Counted from the stretch's first letter, positions 1,566 to 20,102 are shown. The stretch is DNA of 20,102 bases from a virus (IMGVR_UViG_3300021368_000626:1-20102); one strand, 5' to 3'. A program made the numbers and translations. Notes: generated from the letters alone by a model not told the origin.

Positions 1566-2403
1566 AAATGAAGCAATAACAACAGAAGAAAAACAAAAAG
1601 GCTCTTTCGCAATCGGAAGAGAAGCATATCTTGCTAAGAGAAAGATAGCACAAGAGAGAAATAAAAACTACTTGTGTGTTGGTATTTGGGGAGCACCCAA
1701 ATCCGCAAAGTCAGGTTTAGCAGCAGATATATTATCTGAAGAGGATATTAAGAATGGTATGCATGTTTTTGTATGGGATTATGATAATAGATTTATTGAT
1801 GTTAAAAGAAATCACTACGCTAATGTAGAAAATCTAGTTGTCTTTAATCCTATAGAGAGACATCCTGATACGTTGGTAGATATTAAGGCTACAAAACACA
1901 ATGCAGAAATGCATTATCAAGAGGCTATGTCTTTCTTAGAAAAAGGTAAACTAAAGGCAGTAATTGTAGATGGTGCAGATAAGTTTCTAACTGATGTATG
2001 TGAAACATATATGAGAGTTAAACATAATTTAGATGCTGATACAGTAATTAAACAATTACCATTTGTATGGGGAGATAGAAATACTCCTTACAAGAATTTC
2101 TTACACAAGAAAATATTAGAAATGGATTGTCATAGAATAGTAATTGCTCATTCTAAAGATAAATATGTAGATGGAAATCCTGTCGGTACTATTGCCAATT
2201 GGCATGAGAGTACAGAAGATATTTTTACATCTACTATTAAAATGGATAGAAGAATGAGTAGTGGTACTGCCACGTTTACTGCTCTGATAGAAGCATCTGC
2301 TACAAAACCGGAACTGATAGGAACAAGGCATGTTGTTCTTACTATTGATAATGGTAAAGTAGATTGGAAAGGATTAGAAATGTTGAAGAAGGGAGAACTA
2401 TGA
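1543..2403 (+). CDS. RecA/RadA-like P-loop ATPase (AAA_24-type)
   Basis: A 286-aa P-loop NTPase resembling viral RecA-like recombination or replication ATPases. Start ATG 1543 is preceded by AGAGGAAAT. The Walker A region is at residues 50-57 (GAPKSAKS), where the usual second glycine is alanine (GxxxxAKS instead of GxxxxGKS). Walker B is at about 140-146 (VIVDGAD, Asp143). There is a plausible catalytic region near 195-220 (HRIVIAHSKDKYVDGN). The length suits a single RecA core without the N-terminal domain of cellular RadA. It sits directly upstream of PCNA, whose ATG overlaps its stop, so it probably acts in strand exchange, recombination-dependent replication or DNA loading. The ATPase fold is well supported; the exact role is inferred. 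Confidence 0.8.
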   Translation: MSWKTQDKNEAITTEEKQKGSFAIGREAYLAKRKIAQERNKNYLCVGIWGAPKSAKSGLAADILSEEDIKNGMHVFVWDYDNRFIDVKRNHYANVENLVVFNPIERHPDTLVDIKATKHNAEMHYQEAMSFLEKGKLKAVIVDGADKFLTDVCETYMRVKHNLDADTVIKQLPFVWGDRNTPYKNFLHKKILEMDCHRIVIAHSKDKYVDGNPVGTIANWHESTEDIFTSTIKMDRRMSSGTATFTALIEASATKPELIGTRHVVLTIDNGKVDWKGLEMLKKGEL

Positions 2404-3179
2404 AATTTACAATTTCTTCAAAAAAATTAATTGATGATTTAGAAACTGTTATGTTAAAGGGTAAATACTTTCAGAGTGAAGGAGCAAAAAATGGCTTCTT
2501 AACTAACTATGCAGTATTAGATATTACCAATGATAATGATAAAATGGAAATATATAATGCTGACACAAGTACTGCTTGTATGGTTTCTTCACCGATAACA
2601 GGTGAGACAGAAGAAGGACAATGTGTAGTAGATATATCTAAAACTATTAGTTATCTAAAACCATTTAGTTCTGATGTTGTTATCACTATTGGAGACTATA
2701 TTACTATAGAAGATAGTAGAGATGGTGTAAGTAAAAAGGCTACATTGCCTAAAGTATTAACACATGAAGGTATGGGTTTAATTGCAAGGATGATTAATTT
2801 TACAAATTCTTGGAATTATAATGATGTTTCTTCACCATTACCTACCTTTAGTAAAACAACTTTTGATACATGTGTACAGGTATTATCTTCGGACTTAGTT
2901 CCTGTTGCTAAATCATGTGAAGTTGTTGGAGTGGCAAAATACAAGTTTGATTTTGACAATGATATACTAACTATATCTAGTACAAAAACAGAAGTAGAGA
3001 AATACGAAGGTGGTTTGATACCACTTGATTATACAGGAGAGTATTCTACTGTAGAGTTTACAGGAAACTTTCACAAGTTTCTTGATGGGTTAGTAAGAGT
3101 ATACATGAAAGATGATGCACCAATATTAATGGTATGTCAGAATAGAATGTTATTGAAAGCACCATATTTATCGGGATGA
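2400..3179 (+). CDS. pcn: DNA sliding clamp (PCNA)
   Basis: A 259-aa archaeal/eukaryotic-type sliding clamp, which would encircle DNA as a trimer and tether the polymerase. I chose ATG 2400, overlapping the stop of the upstream ATPase as ATGA, because GGGAG lies 4 nt upstream; an in-frame ATG at 2364 lies inside the upstream gene and adds nothing conserved. The two-domain clamp pattern is visible: an N-terminal beta-alpha-beta start (FTISSKKLIDDLETV), a central linker, and a C-terminal strand set (YMKDDAPILMVCQNRMLLKA) matching the PCNA ending in which the chain returns to a hydrophobic AP motif. It is followed 4 nt later by the polymerase. No clamp loader gene is in this window, so loading would rely on the host RFC or a viral gene elsewhere. 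Confidence 0.85.
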   Translation: MKFTISSKKLIDDLETVMLKGKYFQSEGAKNGFLTNYAVLDITNDNDKMEIYNADTSTACMVSSPITGETEEGQCVVDISKTISYLKPFSSDVVITIGDYITIEDSRDGVSKKATLPKVLTHEGMGLIARMINFTNSWNYNDVSSPLPTFSKTTFDTCVQVLSSDLVPVAKSCEVVGVAKYKFDFDNDILTISSTKTEVEKYEGGLIPLDYTGEYSTVEFTGNFHKFLDGLVRVYMKDDAPILMVCQNRMLLKAPYLSG

Positions 3180-3183
3180 TATT

Positions 3184-4839
3184 ATGATTATAAATAGGTT
3201 AAAGGAAGGAATTGGTCTTAGATGGCGTAATGATTCCGGTATTCGTCAAGAGTGTGTTGTACCTTTTGACGAGTACCAACCCTATTTTTATATTAATTCA
3301 GATGCAGAACAACCATCTCAACTTATCATTGGTGATAAATGGGGTAGGTTTCCAGTGGAACTAAGTTATCATACAGGTGACTATTATAATTTAAATGGTG
3401 AACAATTAACTAAGGTTACTTGGACACCAAGTAATTCAAACCATATAAGAAAACTAAAGGATTGTTTTGAATATACATACGAAGCAGATGTTGCTTTTCA
3501 CTATAGATTTTGTGTAGATGAATTAGAAGTCTTACCGGAATACAAACTCAATAAATGGTATTGGGATATGGAATGGATACAAGGCGGTGATTATGATGGG
3601 GCTATTACTTGTATATCTTTATATGATTCTTATAGAAAAGAATGTGAAGTATTATGGTGGAGTCCAAATAAAATTCAAGTTAAAGGTCACAAAAAACATT
3701 TTAGTTCTGAAAAGGCAATGTTACATTACTTCATGAATTTGATTGAAGAAGATGACCCCGATATGTTAATTTCTTGGTTTGGTTGGAAGTTCGATTTACC
3801 TAAATTAATAGATAGATTAGTTGTAAATGAAATAGATGTAAGAGATTTATCACCGTTCCAACAAGTAACAGGTATTGGTTGGTCTACTAAAACATCGAAG
3901 ATTAATTTACATAGTAACGTTGTTAATAACTATTCACCAATTAGTCAACCAATAAAAGGTAGAATTTGTGTACCATTAGATTTAGCATTTGAAAGACAGT
4001 GGAATGATTCACAAAGAGGAACATTACCATCAATGGCTTTAGACTATGTAGCAGAACTTACATTAGGAGAAAGGAAATTAGTTAGTGAGAAGTTTCCTGA
4101 TAAGAACGAGTTCTTTACAAGAGGTTGGTTAGAAGATACTCAAACTTATTTAGACTATGCTAAAATAGATACAGAGTTATTAGTTAGAATTGATAATGAA
4201 ATGTATATTACAGAATCTATTTTAGCACTACAGAGATTACTAATTGCTCCTTTTGATGCTTGTTTCTATGCAAGTAATATGGGAGGAATATACTTTATGA
4301 GAAACGCCACTTGGAAAGCCCCTACAGGAAAGAAAGGTGACAGGGTAGACTATGATGGTGCAATGGTCTATGACCCTCTCAGTGAGGCTACAAACGGTCT
4401 TCATTTAGGAGTTGCAGCATTCGATTTCGCAGGTCTATATCCGAGTATGATGATTGCTAGAAATATCTCTTGGGAAACTAAAACTGATGTACCAACTGAA
4501 TTTGCAGTTAATATAAAAACACCAAAAGACTTTTCTGAAATAAAAGAAACAGAAATGCGATATTACAAAACAGACAAGTTGGGATTATTACCTAAAGCAG
4601 TATTAGAACTTAAAGAATTAAGGAGTAAATATAAAAAATTAATGAAAGATTCTAAGTCTAAAGAAGAGTACAATAAATGGAATAGTAACCAATTAGCAGT
4701 AAAAAGATTATCTGCTTCCTTTTATGGTATCACTGCCTATCAAGGGTTCGGTTGGGCTGATGTTGATTTAGCCGCTAGTATAACTGCTAGTGCTAGAGAG
4801 GCAATCAGAGAAGCGGCATTTAAAGCGAGGGAATTGTAA
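3184..4839 (+). CDS. polB: Family B DNA polymerase, N-terminal part (exonuclease plus palm motifs A and B)
   Basis: A 551-aa N-terminal portion of a replicative family B polymerase. It has an N-terminal domain (about 1-120), then a DEDDy 3'-5' exonuclease with Exo I (Asp128/Glu130, WDMEW), Exo II (FDLP, Asp204) and Exo III (Tyr325/Asp329, YAKID) all intact. Polymerase motif A is DFAGLYPS (Asp414) and motif B is KRLSASFYG (Lys507 to Gly515). Both deviate: the Ser of DxxSLYPS is Gly417 and the Asn of KxxxNSxYG is Ala511. The chain ends 36 residues after motif B at KAREL, just before motif C would begin. Motif C is encoded by a separate gene starting at 5814. ATG 3184 lies 4 nt after PCNA. The two chains presumably assemble into one enzyme. 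Confidence 0.9.
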   Translation: MIINRLKEGIGLRWRNDSGIRQECVVPFDEYQPYFYINSDAEQPSQLIIGDKWGRFPVELSYHTGDYYNLNGEQLTKVTWTPSNSNHIRKLKDCFEYTYEADVAFHYRFCVDELEVLPEYKLNKWYWDMEWIQGGDYDGAITCISLYDSYRKECEVLWWSPNKIQVKGHKKHFSSEKAMLHYFMNLIEEDDPDMLISWFGWKFDLPKLIDRLVVNEIDVRDLSPFQQVTGIGWSTKTSKINLHSNVVNNYSPISQPIKGRICVPLDLAFERQWNDSQRGTLPSMALDYVAELTLGERKLVSEKFPDKNEFFTRGWLEDTQTYLDYAKIDTELLVRIDNEMYITESILALQRLLIAPFDACFYASNMGGIYFMRNATWKAPTGKKGDRVDYDGAMVYDPLSEATNGLHLGVAAFDFAGLYPSMMIARNISWETKTDVPTEFAVNIKTPKDFSEIKETEMRYYKTDKLGLLPKAVLELKELRSKYKKLMKDSKSKEEYNKWNSNQLAVKRLSASFYGITAYQGFGWADVDLAASITASAREAIREAAFKAREL

Positions 4840-4991
4840 TGGCTAAAACAGACCAAAGTAAACCAATAAGAAGAGAATGTGTAGTTTGTCATAAAATATT
4901 TAGATTGGCAAAGAGAGATGTAAAACGTTGTGCTACTTGTGCTCGTAAGGCAAGAGAGGCTATTCGTAAAGCAAAGGAGGAAAAGAAATGA
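4839..4991 (+). CDS. Zinc-ribbon microprotein (50 aa) inside the PolB split
   Basis: A small basic protein whose ATG shares an A with the PolB-N stop (TAATG). It has two Cys pairs, C14-x2-C17 and C31-x2-C34, the layout of a zinc ribbon, followed by a Lys/Arg-rich helix (ARKAREAIRKAKEEKK). The next gene starts within its stop (ATGA). A nucleic-acid-binding or protein-binding role is likely from the Cys pairs and positive charge, but no family is recognised. Confidence 0.65.
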   Translation: MAKTDQSKPIRRECVVCHKIFRLAKRDVKRCATCARKAREAIRKAKEEKK

Positions 4992-5239
4992 ATAAATTTA
5001 GATTAGCAAGTGTTAAACATGCAGAGTATGAAATCTATAAGGGAATGTTAATTAATAAACGTGATGAACCTATACAAAGAACAATGCAAAATATCTTTGA
5101 TAGAGTAGTTCCCAAAGGAGATAAAGTTGCTTTAAAGAGATGGAATACTGCAATTAAAAATGTTAAACAACAGATGGAAAATAAAATGGAAAATAGAAAA
5201 CAATATTTACCAAAGTATCATGTAGATGGGGATGAATAA
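4988..5239 (+). CDS. Hypothetical basic protein (83 aa) inside the PolB split
   Basis: A small, mostly alpha-helical, lysine-rich protein of unknown function. The start is well supported by AAAGGAGG at 4973-4980, 7 nt before ATG 4988, and it overlaps the upstream stop by 4 nt. The middle (IQRTMQNIFDRVV, then ALKRWNTAIKNVKQQMENK) predicts amphipathic helices. There are no cysteines and no membrane segment. It is the largest gene of the cassette separating the two polymerase halves. No homing endonuclease motif (LAGLIDADG, GIY-YIG or HNH) is visible. Confidence 0.7.
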   Translation: MNKFRLASVKHAEYEIYKGMLINKRDEPIQRTMQNIFDRVVPKGDKVALKRWNTAIKNVKQQMENKMENRKQYLPKYHVDGDE

Positions 5240-5241
5240 TA

Positions 5242-5385
5242 ATGGAAGTACCATGTATTGATTGCGATAAGTTATTTACTTTACGTGGTGGTACTAGTGG
5301 AAATGCTACAAGAAGATGTGGTAAATGTTATTTAGAATGGCAAAGAGAAAGAAGGAGGAAAAAAAATGATAAGAAAGTGTACTAG
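5242..5385 (+). CDS. Zinc-ribbon microprotein (47 aa) inside the PolB split
   Basis: Begins 2 nt after the previous stop. It has C5-x2-C8 and C26-x2-C29 pairs separated by 17 residues, a typical zinc ribbon, then a strongly basic tail (WQRERRRKKNDKKVY). The layout matches the 50-aa microprotein at 4839-4991, with Cys pairs followed by a basic tail, so the two may be distant paralogues. Its tail overlaps the next tiny gene. Function unknown. Confidence 0.6.
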   Translation: MEVPCIDCDKLFTLRGGTSGNATRRCGKCYLEWQRERRRKKNDKKVY

Positions 5386-5458
5386 AAAGGGATGTGACAA
5401 AGCGATGTTTATGCATGGTGAATGTTATCATCATTATTTTATAGCGTGGGAGAATTGA
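5366..5458 (+). CDS. Cys/His-rich 30-aa microprotein
   Basis: A 30-aa ORF with a strong AAGGAGG site (5352-5358) 7 nt before ATG 5366. It contains CTRKGC and CYHH, so three Cys and two or three His could form one zinc site. The strong ribosome binding site lies inside the previous gene, whose last 20 nt this ORF overlaps. Because it is very short, confidence depends on the ribosome binding site and the Cys/His pattern. Confidence 0.45.
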   Translation: MIRKCTRKGCDKAMFMHGECYHHYFIAWEN

Positions 5459-5459
5459 A

Positions 5460-5696
5460 ATGTTAATGTATAGTTTATCTGTAATAGGAGGATTTGCATT
5501 AGCAAAATGGGCAGTGCCTAGAGTACCTTCGTTAAAGACAGAAAAATATCATTTACACCATTGGATATGGTCTTCACTGATATTGTTAGGATTTATGTTT
5601 ATTACTGTAACAGATATTACTATTGGTCTATTTACAGGTGTTGCTTTACAAGGTTTAACTTACAAGAATTGGGGGATTAAAAGAAATGGTAGTTGA
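5460..5696 (+). CDS. Small membrane protein (78 aa) with HLHHW motif
   Basis: A 78-aa protein with an N-terminal hydrophobic stretch (LMYSLSVIGGFALAKWAV), a polar loop, then HLHHW followed by a strong membrane segment (IWSSLILLGFMFITV) and a further weakly hydrophobic segment. It ends in a basic tail (YKNWGIKRNGS). GGGAG at 5448-5452 lies 7 nt upstream of ATG. The three clustered histidines at the membrane edge could bind a metal or stack against a headgroup. It is one of two membrane microproteins in the PolB-splitting cassette. Family not recognised. Confidence 0.65.
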   Translation: MLMYSLSVIGGFALAKWAVPRVPSLKTEKYHLHHWIWSSLILLGFMFITVTDITIGLFTGVALQGLTYKNWGIKRNGS

Positions 5697-5823
5697 AACA
5701 GATTTATTATTATACGGTGCATGTTGTGCAGGTTTATGTTTTTTAATATGTGTTGGATATATTATAGTAGAAAATCTGCGTACAACATATCAGATTATTC
5801 AAGATGGAGTTGAGTGGCCTTGA
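5686..5823 (+). CDS. Single-span membrane microprotein (45 aa)
   Basis: A 45-aa ORF starting inside the end of the previous gene (11-nt overlap) and ending 10 nt inside the PolB C-terminal gene in a different frame. Residues 7-28 form one cysteine-rich hydrophobic segment (LLLYGACCAGLCFLICVGYI) followed by a soluble tail ending in GVEWP. A GGGGGATT tract lies 10 nt or more before ATG 5686. Its 3' end carries the GGAG ribosome binding site for the PolB C-terminal gene, so the two are probably translationally coupled. Confidence 0.5.
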   Translation: MVVETDLLLYGACCAGLCFLICVGYIIVENLRTTYQIIQDGVEWP

Positions 5824-6716
5824 AAGTAGTTTATGGACATACAGATTCTATTTATGTACAAATAGATAATATAGAAGAATCTAAAAAAACATTAGACATT
5901 CTAAACAAACACGTGAGGAAGAGTTTTCCTAATGTTCTTGGGTTGAATGAACACCCCGTTGTTTTAGAGTTTGAAAAGTATTTTCATAGTCTTGGTGTAG
6001 GTGTAACTAAGAATAGGAATGCAGGTCTAATAACATGGAAAGATGGTAAAGACTTAGAAGAAATGGAATTCACAATGACAGGGTTTACTGCAAAAAGAGT
6101 TTCTGAAACGAAGTTATCTAAAGAAGTACAACTTACTGTACTAAAAATGTGGGCAGAAAGTAAAACTGAAGAAGAGATTAGTTCATATCTTAATGATAAG
6201 TATTATGAAGTATTAAATGGAAATGTACCTTTGTCAGAAATTACGAAAAGAAGTAGATATCGAGATGCTAGATTTCAAGTAGAATGTAAAACATGTAAAA
6301 GAAATTCTAATCTCAATGAATTAGTAATGAGTCCTTGTTGTAGTTTACCCAAATTACAAACAACAGAAGGTAAAAATGTTACAGTGGGAGCAGGAATTGC
6401 AGGTATATTATTTTATAATAATCTTCCAAATAACTCTCCTATTACTGATTCGTATTTATATTGTAAAATAAAAGAGAACAGTAATAATAAGTTTTTACAC
6501 CCTGTTACTCAACAGACTATCATAACAACATGGTATTCTGCAAATAACGAAAAAGAAATAGAACTATTTTTAAAATCTTCACGTAGTTCTATTGATTGGT
6601 TTTATTATGCCAATACTGTAGTGAAGAAAGCAGAACCAGTGTATTTAGCAATGGGTTGGTCAACTGCGAATATAACAAAAGACAAAAATCAAAAGGATTT
6701 AGGAGAATGGTTTTAA
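5814..6716 (+). CDS. polB: Family B DNA polymerase, C-terminal part (motif C, palm and thumb)
   Basis: A 300-aa second half of the polymerase. The GTG start at 5814 has GGAG at 5806-5809; the chain begins MALKVV directly before motif C (residues 7-12, YGHTDS). The first Asp of the normal YGDTDS is His9, while the catalytic second Asp (Asp11) is kept. PVVLEFEKYFHS (about 48-59) and the KxRYAG-like element KNRNAG (66-71, Tyr replaced by Asn) follow in the usual order. A Cys cluster (C158, C161, C175, C176) sits in the thumb region and may bind zinc. Placed after the 551-aa part, the distance between motifs B and C is about 41 residues, as in intact archaeal enzymes. It would need to associate with the N-terminal chain to work. 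Confidence 0.85.
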   Translation: MALKVVYGHTDSIYVQIDNIEESKKTLDILNKHVRKSFPNVLGLNEHPVVLEFEKYFHSLGVGVTKNRNAGLITWKDGKDLEEMEFTMTGFTAKRVSETKLSKEVQLTVLKMWAESKTEEEISSYLNDKYYEVLNGNVPLSEITKRSRYRDARFQVECKTCKRNSNLNELVMSPCCSLPKLQTTEGKNVTVGAGIAGILFYNNLPNNSPITDSYLYCKIKENSNNKFLHPVTQQTIITTWYSANNEKEIELFLKSSRSSIDWFYYANTVVKKAEPVYLAMGWSTANITKDKNQKDLGEWF

Positions 6717-6985
6717 TGGCAAGAAGTAGTAATACAAATGAATATACATATCAATGGGTAGCAGATACATATGGTGATGAAGATTTACCAATATTAAAAA
6801 TAACTAAATCATCATTTGGTTCTTTCCAATGGTGTCCTAAAAAATATCAATTTTCATATATTGAAAGATTACCTCAAGATACAACTGAAGCAATGTATAA
6901 GGGTACTATTATTCACAATGCTAGAGAAGCATTCTTTGATGATTTGACATTGCTAAAGCAGAAGATATGTCACATTCAGAATTAA
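6716..6985 (+). CDS. Cas4/RecB-like PD-(D/E)XK nuclease, N-terminal fragment (frameshifted)
   Basis: The N-terminal part of a nuclease whose remainder is in another frame. ATG 6716 overlaps the PolB stop (TAATG), with AGGAG at 6701-6705. It has the RecB/Cas4-type opening ITKSSFGSFQWCPKKYQFSYIERL, whose Cys would be the first ligand of a 4Fe-4S cluster, and the helix GTIIHNAREAFFDD carrying the conserved His. After about 6943 the frame loses similarity and ends in a short tail (LLKQKICHIQN). Reading one base back at that point gives FDIAKAEDM and joins the downstream frame. A missing T in the TTT at 6943-6945 would explain this, either as a sequencing error or as a true mutation. Confidence 0.7.
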   Translation: MARSSNTNEYTYQWVADTYGDEDLPILKITKSSFGSFQWCPKKYQFSYIERLPQDTTEAMYKGTIIHNAREAFFDDLTLLKQKICHIQN

Positions 6986-7599
6986 TTAATTATTGTCTTA
7001 GTTTACACCCTATAGATGACTATACGGAGATGTATGAAACTATGTCTATCTTTGAGGCTAATAGATTTATAGAAGCCAAAGAACAAGATATGTTAGATGA
7101 TTTTATTCCTGTTGTTAATGAAGTATTATTAGATGCTAAGATTACTGTAGGTCAATACGATAACCCAAAGTATACACTCAAAAGAGATTATACTGTACAT
7201 CTTCAAGGTATCATTGACCGTATGTTTTATGAAGACGGTTCATATATCCCTATGGAGTTAAAGACAGGTCTTTGGAAAGATTACAAAACAACGATGATGA
7301 GAAAGGAAATGGCGTTTTACAAATTGTTATTCGAGAATGCTTCTGATGAATTATTAGAAAGTGCAAACTTAGACAGAAATATACCCATTACTCATTGGGG
7401 TTGGTATTATCCTGCATCCAATTATTTACACATGGAAAAGATGAAACCTAGTAGTGTTACATCAGTAAAGAAAGGAATAGCAGAATTAATATACGCATAT
7501 GAACACGGAGTATTCCCCACTAAATATTTTGCAAGAACTTGTGCTTCTTGTAGTTTTTTTGGAATATGTGATGCGGCTAATACGGAGAGTTGGTTATGA
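6943..7599 (+). CDS. Cas4/RecB-like PD-(D/E)XK nuclease, C-terminal fragment
   Basis: The continuation of the nuclease in a different frame; the first internal ATG is at 6967. It carries the catalytic PD-(D/E)XK core: the Asp in LQGIIDRMFY and the E-x-K of MELKTG, followed by the RecB-family helix with a KEMAFYKLL pattern. The C-terminus has C-x2-C-x5-C (CASCSFFGIC), which with the N-terminal Cys of the upstream fragment would bind a 4Fe-4S cluster as in Cas4. Rejoined, the protein would be about 295 aa. Such enzymes resect DNA ends in replication or recombination; nothing here points to a CRISPR role. No ribosome binding site is seen at 6967, consistent with a broken single gene rather than a second gene. 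Confidence 0.75.
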   Translation, partial: FDIAKAEDMSHSELINYCLSLHPIDDYTEMYETMSIFEANRFIEAKEQDMLDDFIPVVNEVLLDAKITVGQYDNPKYTLKRDYTVHLQGIIDRMFYEDGSYIPMELKTGLWKDYKTTMMRKEMAFYKLLFENASDELLESANLDRNIPITHWGWYYPASNYLHMEKMKPSSVTSVKKGIAELIYAYEHGVFPTKYFARTCASCSFFGICDAANTESWL

Positions 7600-13246: not shown

Positions 13247-14941
13247 TCAATCAAACTCCACGAATATAACACCTACCGTATCTCCCATATCAACACTATT
13301 GGCATTTGTTCTTTGTATTCTAATTTCATCTCCTCTATCAAAAGTATGGTTTACAACCACTGAACCTCTCCATATTGTACTTGAATGAGGAGATTGTGTT
13401 AATTCCATTGTAGCACTTCCACTTACTCCTGAATCATCTTGAGTTGCACTCTTCGCTACTGCAATTTGGAAAAATTCTCCCGAACTAGAATTATCATTAT
13501 TATTGTTTATTTTCCAAGTTTGTTCATTTGTACTTGTAACTGTATGGGCTCTAGTGTTTATTGTGAAATATTTTACTGTTCCCGATTTAGGCATAATATA
13601 TCCCCAATGGTTATTACTTGAAGCGACATCATTTGCTACTGCTTTTAGATTTACTGCACCGGAATTCATGTCACTTCTATTATACACAAATGAAACACAA
13701 CTGTTAATGTTACCTAACGAAGTTTTAATTTCACCTGTAACTTCTGCACCCGTAGCAGTTGTAGCAAACTTAGCCGAGTTATTATGATAGAGAGTTACTG
13801 CTCCATTATCATTGAATACTGCTCCCGATTCTGCTGCATCTGTTCCCATCATTATTTTGACATTTGTTCCGGCTAAAATTAAATCACCTGTACCACCATC
13901 ATTAACATAAGAGTTAGAACCATCATGGTATATCTCTAGGTCGCCACCAGTTCCGAGTTTTAATTTATTATCGTCATTAAGTTGTATATTACCTGCAACC
14001 TCTAATATTTCAGAAGGAGATTCTGTACCAATACCAATTTTACCTCCTAATGGTTGTAATGAAATATCTCTAGCGGCATTACCACTATTTCTTCCTTGAA
14101 TCCAAAGTGAATAAGGAGAATCGTTATCTAATCCAAATGCAAACTCTGAATTTTCATTTTGAAATATTTGTCCTGCCGTAGCACCAAATGTTAATGATGG
14201 TGCAATAGTTGATTGTGTATCTACATGAAATTTTGCGGCAGGTGCATTAGTACCAATTCCAACTCTTGAAGTACCTGCATTACAATAAAATATATCATTT
14301 TCTGTATCAGAGTTCCAAACTAGGTCTATATCATCTTGATTTGCATTTATTTCTACTTGTCTAGCACTACCACGAAGTCTCATATACTCCTGTTCTACTG
14401 AACCCGCTTCTGTTAGTCTGAATATCATCTCACCATCTTCTGTGCCATTGCTGACATCATTCGGTTTCATCACTATTCTACCGAAGTTGGTCTTCTCACT
14501 TGCATCGTTATTGGCACTCCAAACTATTGCACCAATATCATCCGCATCACTTGAGTTAGCACTATCGTTTCTATACAAATCAAGTATAGGCCCATCAACC
14601 GCATCAGCATTTGTATTCTCTAAAATCAAAGTAGAAGTATTAGATGCACTATTTGTAATAGTAACAGATTTAGTTTGAGCATTCATTGAAATAGTTCCAT
14701 CGGCATTAATTGCCATACTTTGTATTCCTGATATATCATTAACACTAAAGATATCTCCACTATTTAATGTTGGAGATATAGAGAAAACTTGTCCTTGAAC
14801 CCCTTCAAAAGATAGAGTATTATCATCTAATATTTTCAAGTCTACTGGACTGTTATCTTTACCCGTAAATGTAATTTTAGGATGAGTAGTTGCCACACCT
14901 GTATTCGGTGTAATTAAAATATCTTTATCACTATCTGCCAT
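13247..14941 (-). CDS. Tail fibre / adhesin protein with shared beta modules
   Basis: A 564-aa structural protein. The N-terminus (DKDILITPNTGVATTHPKI, then DLKILDDNTLSFEG) resembles the virion-attachment end of many marine phage fibres. The middle holds two GIGT anchors (RVGIGTNAPAAKFHV and KIGIGTESPSEILEV) and an LGTGGDLEIYHDGSNSY module also found in the long fibre to the right. The last 150 residues, after a GEIKTSLGNINS linker, are different: a Ser/Asn-rich globular region ending in VDMGDTVGVIFVEFD, probably the receptor-binding tip with a C1q/jelly-roll-like look. The start overlaps the upstream stop (TAATG). It likely recognises the host surface; the ligand is unknown. Confidence 0.75.
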   Translation of the reverse strand: MADSDKDILITPNTGVATTHPKITFTGKDNSPVDLKILDDNTLSFEGVQGQVFSISPTLNSGDIFSVNDISGIQSMAINADGTISMNAQTKSVTITNSASNTSTLILENTNADAVDGPILDLYRNDSANSSDADDIGAIVWSANNDASEKTNFGRIVMKPNDVSNGTEDGEMIFRLTEAGSVEQEYMRLRGSARQVEINANQDDIDLVWNSDTENDIFYCNAGTSRVGIGTNAPAAKFHVDTQSTIAPSLTFGATAGQIFQNENSEFAFGLDNDSPYSLWIQGRNSGNAARDISLQPLGGKIGIGTESPSEILEVAGNIQLNDDNKLKLGTGGDLEIYHDGSNSYVNDGGTGDLILAGTNVKIMMGTDAAESGAVFNDNGAVTLYHNNSAKFATTATGAEVTGEIKTSLGNINSCVSFVYNRSDMNSGAVNLKAVANDVASSNNHWGYIMPKSGTVKYFTINTRAHTVTSTNEQTWKINNNNDNSSSGEFFQIAVAKSATQDDSGVSGSATMELTQSPHSSTIWRGSVVVNHTFDRGDEIRIQRTNANSVDMGDTVGVIFVEFD

Positions 14942-15657
14942 TATAAACCAACCCTTCCTCTTATATTATTAAATGATTGCACTACTTCTGCCGTTGTCAA
15001 TGCAGTATCGTATATCTTTACGAGAGCAACTTGCCCATTAAAGTGTCCTGCATAACCCTTGCCGATTGTAATATTATGTGTAGCGGCTTCTGCGGCAGTT
15101 ATTACTTCACTATTCGTACTTACAAAACTTGTATCAGTAGATAAGAGTGTTCCATTTTTATAATGTCTTTGTTGTGTATTAGTAAAATCTCTTACGACAG
15201 TATAATGATGCCATACATTATCAACATTAAAATGAGCACCTGCACCAGTACCATTGTAATAATTTGTACTAGCATCTGCACCATCTCCAAAATATAGAGT
15301 CATAGAACCATTTGTTTCATTTGTTATTGTTCCTGTACCATGATAACTTTTATTATAAATATTACATCTATTATCACGATTATCTGATTTAAACAATAGT
15401 TCCCATGTAGCATCACCTGTTAAGTTATCAACTAATGGTGTATCTCCAACTTGAAAATAGTCATCACTTCCATCAAAATCAAAATATCCTGCATTGTTAG
15501 TACTAAATGTAGCACCATTAGTAACAGTAGCGGCAATATTTTGTATAACATCATAAACAGTAGTACCACTTCCTGAGTATGATTTAGGATTAGCCGCATC
15601 ATAACAGAAAATTAGATTATTAGGTTTAGATAACTTTGCTCCTCCCGATACTCCCAT
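14941..15657 (-). CDS. LamG / concanavalin A-like lectin domain protein (third paralogue)
   Basis: A 238-aa virion-associated protein with a single jelly-roll (LamG-like) domain. GGAGG (15665-15669) lies 7 nt before ATG 15657. It opens with LSKPNNLIFCYDAANPKSYSG, followed by FDFDGSDDYFQV, a central TWELLFKS strand, HHYTVVRDF, and a closing LVKIYDTALTTAEVVQSF then RGRVGL. This D-A-A-N-P start and R-G-R ending are typical of small LamG proteins in marine phage tails and are shared with the two paralogues to the right. Likely binds glycans on the host or decorates the tail. Confidence 0.75.
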   Translation of the reverse strand: MGVSGGAKLSKPNNLIFCYDAANPKSYSGSGTTVYDVIQNIAATVTNGATFSTNNAGYFDFDGSDDYFQVGDTPLVDNLTGDATWELLFKSDNRDNRCNIYNKSYHGTGTITNETNGSMTLYFGDGADASTNYYNGTGAGAHFNVDNVWHHYTVVRDFTNTQQRHYKNGTLLSTDTSFVSTNSEVITAAEAATHNITIGKGYAGHFNGQVALVKIYDTALTTAEVVQSFNNIRGRVGL

Positions 15658-15659
15658 AT

Positions 15660-15791
15660 TTATTCCTCCAATGATTCGATTATATCTAAAGCGGCAGTTT
15701 GTAATTCTACAGTAACATGTTTTCCAATACCTTGTAGTATATTATTTAATTGCTTGACAGAATATTTTTTACCATTTATTTCATATTTCAT
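15660..15791 (-). CDS. Small hypothetical protein (43 aa) between LamG genes
   Basis: A 43-aa ORF linked by ATGA to the second LamG gene and ending 2 nt before the third. GGAG (15801-15804) is 9 nt upstream. The protein starts MKYEINGKKYSVKQLNNIL and ends in a helix (ELQTAALDIIESLEE). The junction pattern supports a real gene. It may be a small partner or chaperone of the neighbouring lectin-like protein; no family recognised. Confidence 0.55.
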   Translation of the reverse strand: MKYEINGKKYSVKQLNNILQGIGKHVTVELQTAALDIIESLEE

Positions 15792-16549
15792 ATTCCAACT
15801 CTCCCTCTTGTTGCATTAAAATTCTGTAATATTTCTGCGGCAGATAATGTTTTAGAATAAATTCTAGCACAAAGCATACTTCCCATAAAACCATATCTAG
15901 ATGTTCCTGAAGAATAACTTGCCATTATTCTATTAACTGTTAATTCAGAATCAGAAAGTGTTACAGTATTTCCTGTTTGTATTCCATCAACATAAAACGT
16001 TAGGACTCTTCCAGTTGTCGCAGTAAATACAACCTGATGCCAGTCTTTATTCCCTGTTGAAATATCAGTTCCACTAGAATGATAATTACCACCATCATCT
16101 CTAAATCTAGGATACCAACTATTAGCACCTGACATTTGCCATATCATCCAATTAGTAGTAGTACCTTTTCCCCCTAAACTTTGAAAGGTTTGAACTGCAT
16201 TAGAACGAGGTTTAGCCCAAAATTCACAAGACCAAGCATCTTCATCAGCAAAAGTAATACCATCATCAAGTTGTAATCTATTATCAAAATTAGTAGCATC
16301 TGTACTACTATTTCTTCCTGTTATTCCTAAATCAATTGCCTTAACTGCACCCGTATCTGTAGGAAAAGAAAAAGATGCAGTTGTTCCTGCACCTGTAATT
16401 CCTCTATCTCCCCTAGAAGAATGAGAAACAATAGCACTATCTCTCATACTTGTTACTTCATCATCAGAATCAGTACACTTTACATTACCTGCATCAAATG
16501 AAAATATTAGTGAATCACTAACAACATTTAATCCATTATGAAATCCCAT
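15788..16549 (-). CDS. LamG / concanavalin A-like lectin domain protein (second paralogue)
   Basis: A 253-aa protein. I start at ATG 16549, which overlaps the upstream stop (TAATG) and has GAGGAAG just upstream; the in-frame extension to 16603 adds a basic stretch encoded inside the previous gene. The order is the same as its paralogues: NVVSDSLIFSFDAGN near the start, a central WSCEFWAKPRS strand, WHQVVFTATTGRVLTFYVDG, and a C-terminal ARIYSKTLSAAEILQNF then RGRVGI. It has a longer, Ser/Thr-rich insertion in its first third than the others, so binding surfaces probably differ. Confidence 0.75.
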   Translation of the reverse strand: MGFHNGLNVVSDSLIFSFDAGNVKCTDSDDEVTSMRDSAIVSHSSRGDRGITGAGTTASFSFPTDTGAVKAIDLGITGRNSSTDATNFDNRLQLDDGITFADEDAWSCEFWAKPRSNAVQTFQSLGGKGTTTNWMIWQMSGANSWYPRFRDDGGNYHSSGTDISTGNKDWHQVVFTATTGRVLTFYVDGIQTGNTVTLSDSELTVNRIMASYSSGTSRYGFMGSMLCARIYSKTLSAAEILQNFNATRGRVGI

Positions 16550-16818
16550 TATTCTTCCTCGGTTATAACTTCTATTGGGGCAGGTTCTTCTTCTCCTTGC
16601 CATTCAGGGTAAGTTAAAATTTCTTTTATTTCTTTATGATTTAATGGCCCAACTGTATTTTTTAATTTAGAAATAAAATATGGTTTTCTTCCTTCCCATT
16701 TTACAAATGTTCTTTTGTTATCTTTACTATAACGTAATGTATCTTTAGAAGTTTCAAGTACCTTTTCAAAGTCAATTGAATCTACATCTTTTGTATTTAA
16801 TATCATATATTTTCTCAT
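16549..16818 (-). CDS. Conserved small phage structural-region protein (89 aa)
   Basis: An 89-aa protein, ATG overlapping the stop of the first LamG gene (ATGA). The pattern KYMILNTKDVDSIDFEKVL, then SKDTLRYSKDNKRTFVKWEG and the HKEIKEILTYPEW ending recalls small proteins found among fibre and LamG genes of marine tailed phages. The C-terminus is acidic and proline-rich (EEEPAPIEVITEEE). Role unknown; from its position it could assist fibre or lectin assembly. Confidence 0.65.
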   Translation of the reverse strand: MRKYMILNTKDVDSIDFEKVLETSKDTLRYSKDNKRTFVKWEGRKPYFISKLKNTVGPLNHKEIKEILTYPEWQGEEEPAPIEVITEEE

Positions 16819-17498
16819 AATCCAAACCTCTTTCTATTTGCATCAAAGTTTTGTTTAACTTCAGCAGGAGTTAATGCTTTCTTATACATTCTAGCCATAG
16901 CCATTCTTCCTTCATAATAAGTTCCTTGAGCACCACTAGCCGCTTGTTGACTACAAATCTTCCAATCAGCATCTTCGGGAGTTCCATCTCCTGTTATATC
17001 AGAAGGGTCATAGGATTGTCCCAATTCTCCATTTTTATATATTGCCATCAATGTATCATTTTCCCAAGTCATAATAAGATTATGCCAAGCATCTCTAGTA
17101 ATACTTACACTTCTTTGTTTAGAAGTACTTCCTGCTCTAACCCATGCACATACTTGATTATCAGTTGAAGTTCTCCATATTCCATGTGAACCTGCATAAC
17201 CTCCTCTTGTAAATATAGAAGACTTAAACGAATTAGACCAAGTAGCATCTGAAGGAACATATATCCAAACTTCTAAACTAAAGTCATCAGCAAATGTAGC
17301 AGGATAACTATTATTTGTTATAGTTAAATCTTCATTAACACCATCAAAGGTAAAATAACCATCTGTACTATGGGTTGGAGTATTAGCAAGAGTGGTAGCA
17401 TTTCCTCCTGCTATATCAGTAGCACTAGAAAATGATTTAGGATTTAGAGCATCAATACAAACTTCTAATTCTTGTACTATTTTTGGCCCATAGTGCAT
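16815..17498 (-). CDS. LamG / concanavalin A-like lectin domain protein (first paralogue)
   Basis: A 227-aa protein. ATG 17498 is preferred over the longer frame from 17558: it overlaps the fibre stop (TAATG) and GGAG lies 5 nt upstream. It shows MHYGPKIVQELEVCIDALNP, FTFDGVNEDLTI, FSLEVWIYVPSD, WHNLIMTWENDTLMAIYKNG, then ARMYKKALTPAEVKQNFDA and a final KRFGL. This is the standard arrangement of the single-domain LamG proteins that many marine phages carry near tail fibres. Likely a carbohydrate-binding virion component. Confidence 0.78.
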   Translation of the reverse strand: MHYGPKIVQELEVCIDALNPKSFSSATDIAGGNATTLANTPTHSTDGYFTFDGVNEDLTITNNSYPATFADDFSLEVWIYVPSDATWSNSFKSSIFTRGGYAGSHGIWRTSTDNQVCAWVRAGSTSKQRSVSITRDAWHNLIMTWENDTLMAIYKNGELGQSYDPSDITGDGTPEDADWKICSQQAASGAQGTYYEGRMAMARMYKKALTPAEVKQNFDANRKRFGL

Positions 17499-20102
17499 TA
17501 ATACTCCACCACCATCTTCGCTATATCCTTTCTTTCTGCTTGAATGAAATAATAACAATTGATATCATGCATCTTTTCATTTTCAACATACACTTTATTA
17601 TCTTCTATCTTGTCAACATATAATCTTTGGAATCTAGTTTTACCTGTAAGTTGTACTGTTATACTATCTTCATCTACTAGTCCTAACCAATACTCCGGTA
17701 ATTCAATAAATCCTTCTGTACTATCTGTGGTTTCTAATGTTCCTCTAACATATACACCATGTTCAGGGCCTTCTAAAGAACCATGTCTTAATGTCTTTCT
17801 TTCTTTAGTTGGATGAGGAATAACGAATGATTTACTTGTAGCAGATAATGTTCCTGTTACTGTAACACCATCAGCACTTGTTGCTAATTTAGCCACATTA
17901 TCATAATAAAGAGTTACTGCACCGTTATCCATAAATGTAGCCATATTTTCTGCGGCATCATCCCCACCTTTTATGGCAACTTGAGTTGAGTTAATGATTA
18001 AAGAACCAGTTCCTTCTTCGTCTATGTATGAATTAGAACCATCATGATATATCGTTAAATCCGAACCTGCACCAAATATTAATTTATTATTGTCAGCATC
18101 AAGATGTAAGTTTCCTGTGTGTACTGAATCTCCTGTAATATCTAAACCTCTATATGAAAGTACACTACTATTAGTAATTCTCATTATGTTAGAACCACCA
18201 TCATCAAGCCATACACCATCATTTCCATCTAATCTTAATAGACCTGTATCACTGTCAATGTAACTGTTAGTTCCATCATGGAATATTTGTAGGTCTTGAC
18301 CTGCACCTAATCTTAATCTTGTATCATCAGTAGGTATATCTACATGTCCTAATTCACCATCTACTTTCATTACTGTTACTTCAGTTCCATCTGAATCAGT
18401 ACCACCTTTGTTTACATTGAATTTAATATCGTCATTATCACGTACTGTTTGTAAAACTAAGGCGTTGCCATGACCTTCTATAATAGATGAACCTGCATCA
18501 CCATGAATTTTAACAAGACCACTATTTGTATTTCCAAGCATTAGATAGCCACTACCATCTACTTTTATATCTGCATTATTTGAAAGTCTTATATTACCAT
18601 TAACACCTAATACTTCAGCAGGAGTGCTTGTACCAATTCCAACTTTATTATTTCCTGCATCTACAAATATCATATTAGCATTAGAATCTGATTCTACACG
18701 GAAATCCCATGCGGCTAATCCACCTTCATTGAAAACTGCACCATATAATGCATCTAATTTTAATGCGGAATTATTAACATCTGTTGAACCACCTACTGCG
18801 GGCATAAAAAATAATTGTCCATCTTCACTTCCTGCTGAAACATCTCTTGTTTTAGCACCTATTCTAGCATAGTATTTTTCACTACCACCATCATCATTAG
18901 CCTTAAAATCAACAATCCCAACAAAATCTGCATCAGCCGGACTTGATGTGTTTCTATATAATACTAAATCGGGAGCAGAAGAATTACCTGCATCTGTTCC
19001 TTCTAATCTTAATAAATCAGAAGTAGTTGAACTTACAACATGTAATGGAGCAGAAGGACTTGTAGTTCCTATTCCAACTTTATTTGCGGAAGCATCGGAA
19101 AAGAAATTTGTCGAACCATCATCTGATTTAATCAACACATCTACGTTTCTCTCACTGTCGTTGAATGTGATTTGGTTAGACGCAACTTTTAGATTTACTC
19201 TTGCAGTTCCCATTTCATATAGTTTGAATTGGAATGCGGCATTTTCAGTAGTATCGGTTTCATCTTCAATTAAGTTTATGATTTCACCATAAGTTACTTT
19301 CTCATCATTGTCATTCTCGCCTGTAAACTTAATATTACCGATAACATCGTTCACGGCGGGAGAGGCAGAATGCCTATACAAATCCAATGTAGGTGCGGAG
19401 GCACTACCCGCCTCTGTTGATTCTAATAATAACATAGTATCAGTAGATGAACTTTTAACATGTAATGGAGCAGAAGGACTGTTAGTACCTATTCCAACTC
19501 TTCCTGTATCAACATTAATGTTTAAGTTACTATTATGAGTACCTGCATAACCACCAAGAGAAAGATGTCCTGCACTTCCACCACCCGCATTAAGATATGC
19601 AGTTGTATCATTATCTTTCATTGACATAGTTACTAAATCATCAGTAGATTGAAGTCTAAATAATTCGTTATCAGAACCACCATTTACATGTAAATTAACT
19701 GAAGGACTTGTAGTACCTATTCCAACTCGGTCTTCTGATGAATCAACAACTAAAGTATCTGTATCCCAAATTAAATCACCCGTTCCACCAGTAAGAGCAG
19801 TTAAAGTTCCAAGAGCAGTAATAGAGCCTTGATGTTGAGTAACATTAGAGGCGGCTATTCTAGCATCTGCAAATGTACCGGAAGTAATTTTACTTGTTGC
19901 TAAATTAGGAATATGAGATGCAGATAGATTAGCAGTAATATCTCCTGCCGCAGATAATGCTATTCCTGCGGATGCTGATACTGCTACTGTTCCTCCTGCA
20001 TTAGGTAAAGTAATTGTTCTATCAGCAGTTGGGTCTGTAATAGTTAATGTAGTTTCATAAGCATCAGCAGTTGCTCCTTCAAACACTACTGCATTAGCCG
20101 CT
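17498..20102 (-). CDS. Long tail fibre protein, N-terminus beyond the window
   Basis: At least 867 residues are visible; the frame stays open to the right edge, so the start is outside, and the GTG at 20086 is an internal Val. The visible N-terminal part has the common phage fibre repeat FEGATADAYETTLTITDPTA followed by DRTITLPNAGGTV. Next come four GIGT-anchored beta modules (VGIGTTSPS, LHV, then a LYR segment), then two or more LGAGxDLxIxHDGxNSY modules. The last 115 residues are a separate conserved domain (KSFVIPHPTKERKTLRHG, SLEGPEHGVYVRG, then LPEYWLGLVDEDSITV) known from marine cyanophage fibre ends. Likely a trimeric fibre that contacts the host. Confidence 0.85.
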   Translation of the reverse strand, partial: AANAVVFEGATADAYETTLTITDPTADRTITLPNAGGTVAVSASAGIALSAAGDITANLSASHIPNLATSKITSGTFADARIAASNVTQHQGSITALGTLTALTGGTGDLIWDTDTLVVDSSEDRVGIGTTSPSVNLHVNGGSDNELFRLQSTDDLVTMSMKDNDTTAYLNAGGGSAGHLSLGGYAGTHNSNLNINVDTGRVGIGTNSPSAPLHVKSSSTDTMLLLESTEAGSASAPTLDLYRHSASPAVNDVIGNIKFTGENDNDEKVTYGEIINLIEDETDTTENAAFQFKLYEMGTARVNLKVASNQITFNDSERNVDVLIKSDDGSTNFFSDASANKVGIGTTSPSAPLHVVSSTTSDLLRLEGTDAGNSSAPDLVLYRNTSSPADADFVGIVDFKANDDGGSEKYYARIGAKTRDVSAGSEDGQLFFMPAVGGSTDVNNSALKLDALYGAVFNEGGLAAWDFRVESDSNANMIFVDAGNNKVGIGTSTPAEVLGVNGNIRLSNNADIKVDGSGYLMLGNTNSGLVKIHGDAGSSIIEGHGNALVLQTVRDNDDIKFNVNKGGTDSDGTEVTVMKVDGELGHVDIPTDDTRLRLGAGQDLQIFHDGTNSYIDSDTGLLRLDGNDGVWLDDGGSNIMRITNSSVLSYRGLDITGDSVHTGNLHLDADNNKLIFGAGSDLTIYHDGSNSYIDEEGTGSLIINSTQVAIKGGDDAAENMATFMDNGAVTLYYDNVAKLATSADGVTVTGTLSATSKSFVIPHPTKERKTLRHGSLEGPEHGVYVRGTLETTDSTEGFIELPEYWLGLVDEDSITVQLTGKTRFQRLYVDKIEDNKVYVENEKMHDINCYYFIQAERKDIAKMVVEY
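18620..19735 (-). repeat. Four diverged GIGT-anchored repeat modules in the long fibre
   Basis: The protein motif VGIGT(T/S/N)SPS or TPA followed by LHV or LGV recurs near + positions 19720, 19485, 19070 and 18635. On the + strand each appears as a variant of GTACCTATTCCAACT. The spacing is irregular (about 235, 415 and 435 nt). These are coding beta-structure repeats, diverged at the DNA level, and could promote recombination between fibres. Confidence 0.65.

Follow-up and report, generated by a model that had tools for sequence, protein, structure and literature searches.

A family B DNA polymerase encoded as two chains around a variable microgene block in a clade of ocean archaeal viruses

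The viral contig IMGVR_UViG_3300021368_000626:1-20102 carries a family B DNA polymerase (PolB) gene in two pieces. We refer to this whole stretch of 20,102 nucleotides as the window. The genes for the N-terminal and the C-terminal chain are separated by six small open reading frames (ORFs), here called microgenes, each of which belongs to a family that recurs in 8-26 loci. An initial reading of the window, the original prediction, described the arrangement as a PolB gene cut between motifs B and C by a six-gene cassette. The features of the locus, with protein lengths in amino acids (aa) and ratios of non-synonymous to synonymous substitution (dN/dS), are:

3184..4839, + strand: PolB N chain, 551 aa, with the N-terminal and exonuclease domains, motif A DFAGLYPS, the fingers and motif B KRLSASFYG (Pfam: PF00136, PF03104)
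4837..4841, + strand: TAATG in the sequence, the stop of the N chain overlapping the start of the first microgene, an arrangement shared by most relatives
4839..4991, + strand: microgene 1, Cys-rich and zinc-ribbon-like, 50 aa, paralogue of microgene 3, weak DZR_2 match, dN/dS 0.14-0.25
4988..5239, + strand: microgene 2, 83 aa, no known domain, found in 26 loci, dN/dS 0.02-0.15
5242..5385, + strand: microgene 3, Cys-rich, 47 aa
5366..5458, + strand: microgene 4, Cys/His-rich, 30 aa, found in 10 loci, dN/dS 0.07-0.09 against three close relatives and 0.49 against locus L009
5460..5696, + strand: microgene 5, hydrophobic (membrane-like), 78 aa, found in 8 loci, dN/dS 0-0.11
5686..5823, + strand: microgene 6, hydrophobic, 45 aa, its stop overlapping the TTG of the C chain
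5820 (or 5814)..6716, + strand: PolB C chain, with motif C YGHTDS, the rest of the palm, a thumb with a Cys insert and the PIP-like tail QKDLGEWF (Pfam: PF00136)

Both chains match the DNA_pol_B profile (Pfam: PF00136) above the cut-off and in consecutive segments, the N chain at profile positions 34-194 (E-value 5.9e-22) and the C chain at positions 221-363 (E-value 4.3e-9), which bears out the predicted split between motifs B and C. The N chain also matches PHROG 262 with an E-value of 3.6e-64. According to the alignment, the residues of the DxE, FD and YxxxD motifs of the exonuclease, motif A and the last aspartate of motif C are all kept. When the C chain alone was compared with solved structures no sequence match was found, and this half is therefore easily overlooked in annotation.

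The N chain ends with KAREL, 36 residues past the glycine of KRLSASFYG, exactly as had been predicted. For the C chain, the proposed start MALKVV at GTG 5814 is possible, but the TTG at 5820 is preferred, which gives MKVV ahead of the motif C tyrosine. Nearly all C chains of the relatives begin with M-K/R-V-V-Y-G, and this start shares four bases (TTGA) with the stop of the ORF before it. With the two chains joined from this start, 40 residues lie between motifs B and C, versus 41 in intact relatives (e.g. ...AFKAIELGYEVIYGHTDS). The split thus exchanges little more than the two codons GY for a stop and a start, in agreement with the earlier claim that nothing is lost at the break. Aligned to Deep Vent polymerase, the cut maps to approximately residues 533-536, in a turn that links a palm helix with the motif C strand, and consequently the motif A and motif C aspartates are on different chains. 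The original prediction was also right that both halves have translation signals. The C chain has a conserved start codon of its own with a purine-rich sequence upstream; in nearly all loci the N chain stop overlaps the start codon of whatever gene comes next (C chain or first microgene), and in most loci the C chain start overlaps the preceding stop.

A search of IMG/VR with the N chain gave 555 candidate places, of which the best 80 were kept, and further scans added more loci. In this way we obtained 168 split loci, 59 intact loci and 24 loci with the N chain only; some contigs are duplicated and the intact set includes the Druskaviridae virus HVTV-1. The non-redundant set (<93% identity) contains 55 split loci, including the window, and 28 intact loci (27 without HVTV-1). 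Among the best 80 of the 555 places, the N chain of the split relatives stops at the same place wherever its end is reached, apart from rare extensions, and the C chain opens with M-K/R-V-V-Y-G-H-T-D-S or at an alternative start near there. The 55 split and 27 intact non-redundant relatives have the same gene order, with the intact polB in the same operon. All N-only loci with a listed remaining length are on contigs that end within the known range of cassette lengths, so they do not contradict the split. The comparison with related archaeal viral genomes which the original prediction had proposed therefore shows the split and the cassette to recur.

A single change is enough to account for the split and intact states in the N region tree, where a branch with support 93 separates the split set from the intact loci and HVTV-1. 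The tree of the C region likewise needs one change (support 96). The rooting is tentative because HVTV-1 forms a very long branch. Most likely, judging from these trees, the split is derived and has a single origin near the base of the clade. The original prediction had allowed that intact relatives, together with signs of misassembly, might speak against it; the 27 intact relatives do exist, and they point to a derived split of single origin and not to misassembly. An exact-pattern scan for a short spacing between motifs B and C returned eight loci with an ATGA/TAATG overlap and one intact sister (L163), and no reversion to an intact polB was seen inside the split clade. A search of a phage collection found no close relative among the magroviruses (order Magrovirales, see below), and the C chain matched only HVTV-1-like records there. 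The genome collection gave a single match, the contig NZTP01000016.1 (locus L261), which is binned as Altibacter and carries an intact magrovirus-like polB; as this gene is 87% identical to that of locus L176, the contig is probably a misbinned viral one.

The sequences on the two sides of the change differ in motif B and in the thumb. Motif B is KRL[MS]ASFYG in nearly all split proteins versus KRxVNA[FL]YG in intact ones. A loose cysteine pattern in the thumb (CxxC plus further cysteines) is found in 154 of 163 split C chains and in none of the 59 intact proteins; in the window, a Cys-rich insert at 6280-6360 is possibly zinc-binding. Shared by both sides is motif C (5832-5849 in the window), which reads YGHTDS, with a histidine replacing the usual first aspartate, in split and intact relatives (L001-L225), while HVTV-1 has the aspartate. 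The C-terminal PIP-like tail, Qxx[LI]xx[FWY][FWY], is likewise present in 151 of 163 split C chains and 51 of 59 intact proteins, and its Q, L and W are invariant in the C chain alignment. Both polymerase halves are under purifying selection, with dN/dS values of about 0.02-0.13 against close relatives.

The junction between the halves is by far less constant than the cut. Across split loci, the distance from the N chain stop to the C chain start ranges from -4 (ATGA) and -1 (TAATG) up to about 2.4 kb. The median for the split clade is 385 bases, and only 7% of the gaps are below 60 bases, compared to 87% at the junction of the upstream clamp-like gene with the N chain (median 7) and 97% at the ERCC4-MCM junction; single large gap values also occur at two other junctions of this clade. 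The six microgenes of the window are real ORFs, and most of them are under purifying selection, with dN/dS of 0.02-0.29 in most comparisons and weaker constraint (0.3-0.65) for microgenes 3 and 6, the least constrained, and for the distant comparison of microgene 4. The six-gene cassette of the original prediction thus holds as a set of genes but not as a fixed unit, since the insert varies from none to about 2.4 kb while the split is fixed in the whole clade. By parsimony, the split clade had an insert at its root and lost it four times later; the lineages concerned (L058, L074, L110 and L153) have kept the split, which therefore persists without an insert.

In the intact clade a variable block of 603-2675 bp is located between the clamp-like gene and polB. 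In many of the intact sister viruses (L163-L222) this block encodes a protein of 290-352 aa that by eye resembles IMP dehydrogenase/GMP reductase. The microgene family f9 is found directly before the intact PolB in L163 and L174 and also in the cassette that an early-branching group of split viruses carries (identity up to 57%, E-value 4e-19), and family f10 is common to the intact-clade block and split cassettes (E-value 3e-17). Beyond these two, profile-profile comparison of the cassette families of both clades gave only one good match, between two Cys-rich families. As the variable block of the sister viruses directly precedes an intact polB, the cassette may pre-date the split.

We propose that the N and C chains together make up one replicative DNA polymerase of family B, very probably as an obligate, non-covalent heterodimer. 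The N chain would give the exonuclease, the fingers and the motif A aspartate, and the C chain would add the motif C aspartate with the rest of the palm, as well as the thumb and the PIP-like tail, which could bind the viral sliding clamp. Both would be translated from one operon by stop-start coupling (ATGA/TAATG/TTGA). The split presumably arose once near the base of the clade, at which time the junction most likely held a microgene block, and this block would then have become a hot spot of gain and loss, lost cleanly at least four times with the split staying. The observed basis of this proposal is the homology to consecutive halves of one fold, the intact syntenic orthologues, the single change on the trees, the purifying selection, and the conserved junction and tail. 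From these we infer heterodimer formation, activity, clamp binding and coupled translation.

Structure prediction is consistent with the proposal: the N chain model aligns to RB69 gp43 (Z 22.4, RB69 residues 6-579), and the thumb of the C chain model aligns to archaeal PolB (Z 12.6) and matches RB69 residues 734-903, so that the predicted models match complementary parts of one fold. Several points weigh against the proposal. Both single-chain models are poor in the palm, with pLDDT <50 in N 349-473, N 508-551 and C 52-95, and the underlying alignments are shallow. These poor palm models are no evidence either way, because they are expected from a mutual dependence of the chains and equally from shallow alignments. 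Furthermore, the correlation of the N and C distances in a mirror-tree comparison (r 0.84), which speaks for the proposal, ignores shared descent. The deepest branches have moderate support and the outgroup HVTV-1 is very distant (branch length about 10). Finally, the identity of the gene upstream of the N chain as a clamp is weak.

How the gene became divided can be explained in several ways. The location of the variable block in the two clades suggests, without proving, that the block and the N half exchanged places. The split would then stem from this exchange, e.g. by a tandem duplication of the block plus polB-N with loss of one copy of each, and not from insertion of a cassette; we consider this a serious, if tentative, candidate. 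It agrees with the gene order, which is otherwise the same in both clades, with the block lying before polB in intact viruses and between the halves in split ones, where the clamp junction is tight, and with the two families common to both blocks. However, the families f5, f8, f10, f13, f27 and f28 are also found at other junctions, so the sharing may reflect shuffling; moreover, most cassette families are not common to both clades and HVTV-1 is too distant to give the ancestral order. Somewhat more tentatively, one may extend this to a polymerase split across its active site by a swap of its N half with a pre-existing block, after which the junction became a permanent hot spot of microgene gain and loss between essential, translation-coupled subunits. 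Alternatively, a small frameshift may first have made the overlapping ATGA stop-start, with cassettes entering the junction later. Cassette-less loci indeed differ from intact genes by small indels around the codons GY (GAATTAGGCTATGAAGTA versus GAATTAGAATGAAAGTA), and the relative frame is the same in all zero-gap loci; but these loci are four isolated tips, and with the insert set by parsimony at the root of the split clade we regard this order of events as possible but rather unlikely.

The original prediction also noted that the break is near a known intein site. An intein or homing endonuclease relic that left two genes has been proposed for other split archaeal PolB genes, namely Methanobacteriales PolB3 (PMC4104785), and polB often hosts inteins. 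Yet none of the intact relatives has an intein, their PolB being about 797-812 aa where complete, and the cut lies in the turn upstream of motif C and not within it, so the hint does not hold. Domain and family profile searches of the window cassette found no intein or endonuclease domain, as the original prediction had stated, and an intein relic is very unlikely. We likewise rejected an intein-derived split of the Nanoarchaeum type: no split-intein halves are found at the break, where the N chain runs KAREL-stop and the C chain starts MKVVYG with no extra domain. It is about as improbable that the halves are rejoined before use, by programmed frameshift, trans-splicing or read-through, and that the enzyme is one chain. 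The zero-gap loci would need only a frame change to fuse, but in most loci other genes, up to 2.4 kb of them, separate the halves, there is no split-intein sequence, and the C chain keeps its own conserved start. As for a decaying gene or an assembly error, the frameshifted nuclease gene next to polB shows that the contig is not error-free; however, the same cut recurs in 55 non-redundant loci, which excludes chance or misassembly, both halves have a dN/dS of about 0.1, and the catalytic motifs are kept, which leaves this explanation with practically no probability. The two-chain replicase is thus the reading that we prefer.

The window has about 33% G+C and a strand switch near 13 kb. Its left part carries on the + strand a conserved replication block, and from about 13 kb onwards the - strand carries virion-type genes. 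The block opens with a 412-aa and a 286-aa protein, provisionally labelled SSB and RecA by appearance, and continues with the putative sliding clamp and the split polymerase; these are followed by a PD-(D/E)XK nuclease, a likely primase and an ERCC4 nuclease, and then by a likely MCM-type helicase and an exonuclease. Family matches back the names of the polymerase, the PDDEXK and ERCC4 proteins and the exonuclease; the other names were read from gene order and appearance. The direct neighbours of the two chains are:

2400..3179, + strand: putative sliding clamp (PCNA/beta-clamp-like), adjoining the N chain on its 5' side, a conserved neighbour
6716..7599, + strand: PD-(D/E)XK (Cas4/RecB-like) nuclease, downstream of the C chain, PDDEXK_1 match (E-value 7.6e-6), frameshifted here

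The putative clamp is very divergent, and single-sequence and profile searches give almost no support for it. Pfam, PHROGs, NCBIfam and PDB profiles lend little support to a PCNA identity, with no PDB profile match, and a DNA_pol3_beta_3 match was found in one of 21 family members (E-value 4.5e-4). The frameshift divides the nuclease gene into two overlapping ORFs, while it is a single frame in 76 of 77 compared loci; an indel introduced by sequencing or assembly, or else a recent mutation, is the likely cause. On the - strand, 13247-20086 encodes a series of long, repetitive proteins of tail-fibre-like and LamG-like type whose C-termini are similar.

The nearest known system is the family Aoguangviridae of the Magrovirales (Poseidoniales virus YSH_150918), for which the genome figure legend of the ICTV profile labels PolB-NTD and PolB-CTD separately (PMC10768690), so the split as such is not new in this virus order. 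Compared with that legend, the window shares the split PolB genes, the opposed replication and virion blocks and the low G+C; like Aoguangviridae, it appears to belong to a marine archaeal tailed virus whose replication block includes a family B polymerase. In the literature examined on Aoguangviridae we found no account of the cut site, a single origin, an intact sister clade or a variable cassette, though an earlier description in text is possible. What is new is the reach of the split, its single origin, the intact sister clade and the behaviour of the junction.

Of the named PolBs in the phage collection, that of HVTV-1 is one of the nearest, at about 22-24% identity, but it is encoded by a single uninterrupted gene with the canonical YGDTDS and different neighbours. 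In the Aeromonas T4-like phages 44RR and 25, a viral PolB is likewise encoded by two adjacent cistrons, and the 43A and 43B proteins of phage 25 co-purify and have polymerase activity (PMC2988022), a precedent for the proposed heterodimer. Their cut, however, is in the fingers between motifs A and B, so that motifs B and C are both in 43B, whereas here motif B is on the N chain; in 44RR only 49 bases and no microgene cassette lie between the genes. PolB3 of Methanobacteriales and of Nanoarchaeum equitans is also made as two chains, for which an intein origin is proposed (PMC4104785), but these are cellular genes, and in Nanoarchaeum the parts are not adjacent and are trans-spliced, in contrast to the viral genes of the window without a trace of an intein. 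Because the intact sister genes lie in the same operon, the clade offers a natural before-and-after comparison of an essential one-chain enzyme becoming a two-chain one, and the cut shows where a family B polymerase tolerates being divided. Split polymerases are known mostly as isolated cases; here a deep clade of ocean archaeal viruses has the split as a fixed trait, and the cut separates one catalytic aspartate from the other.

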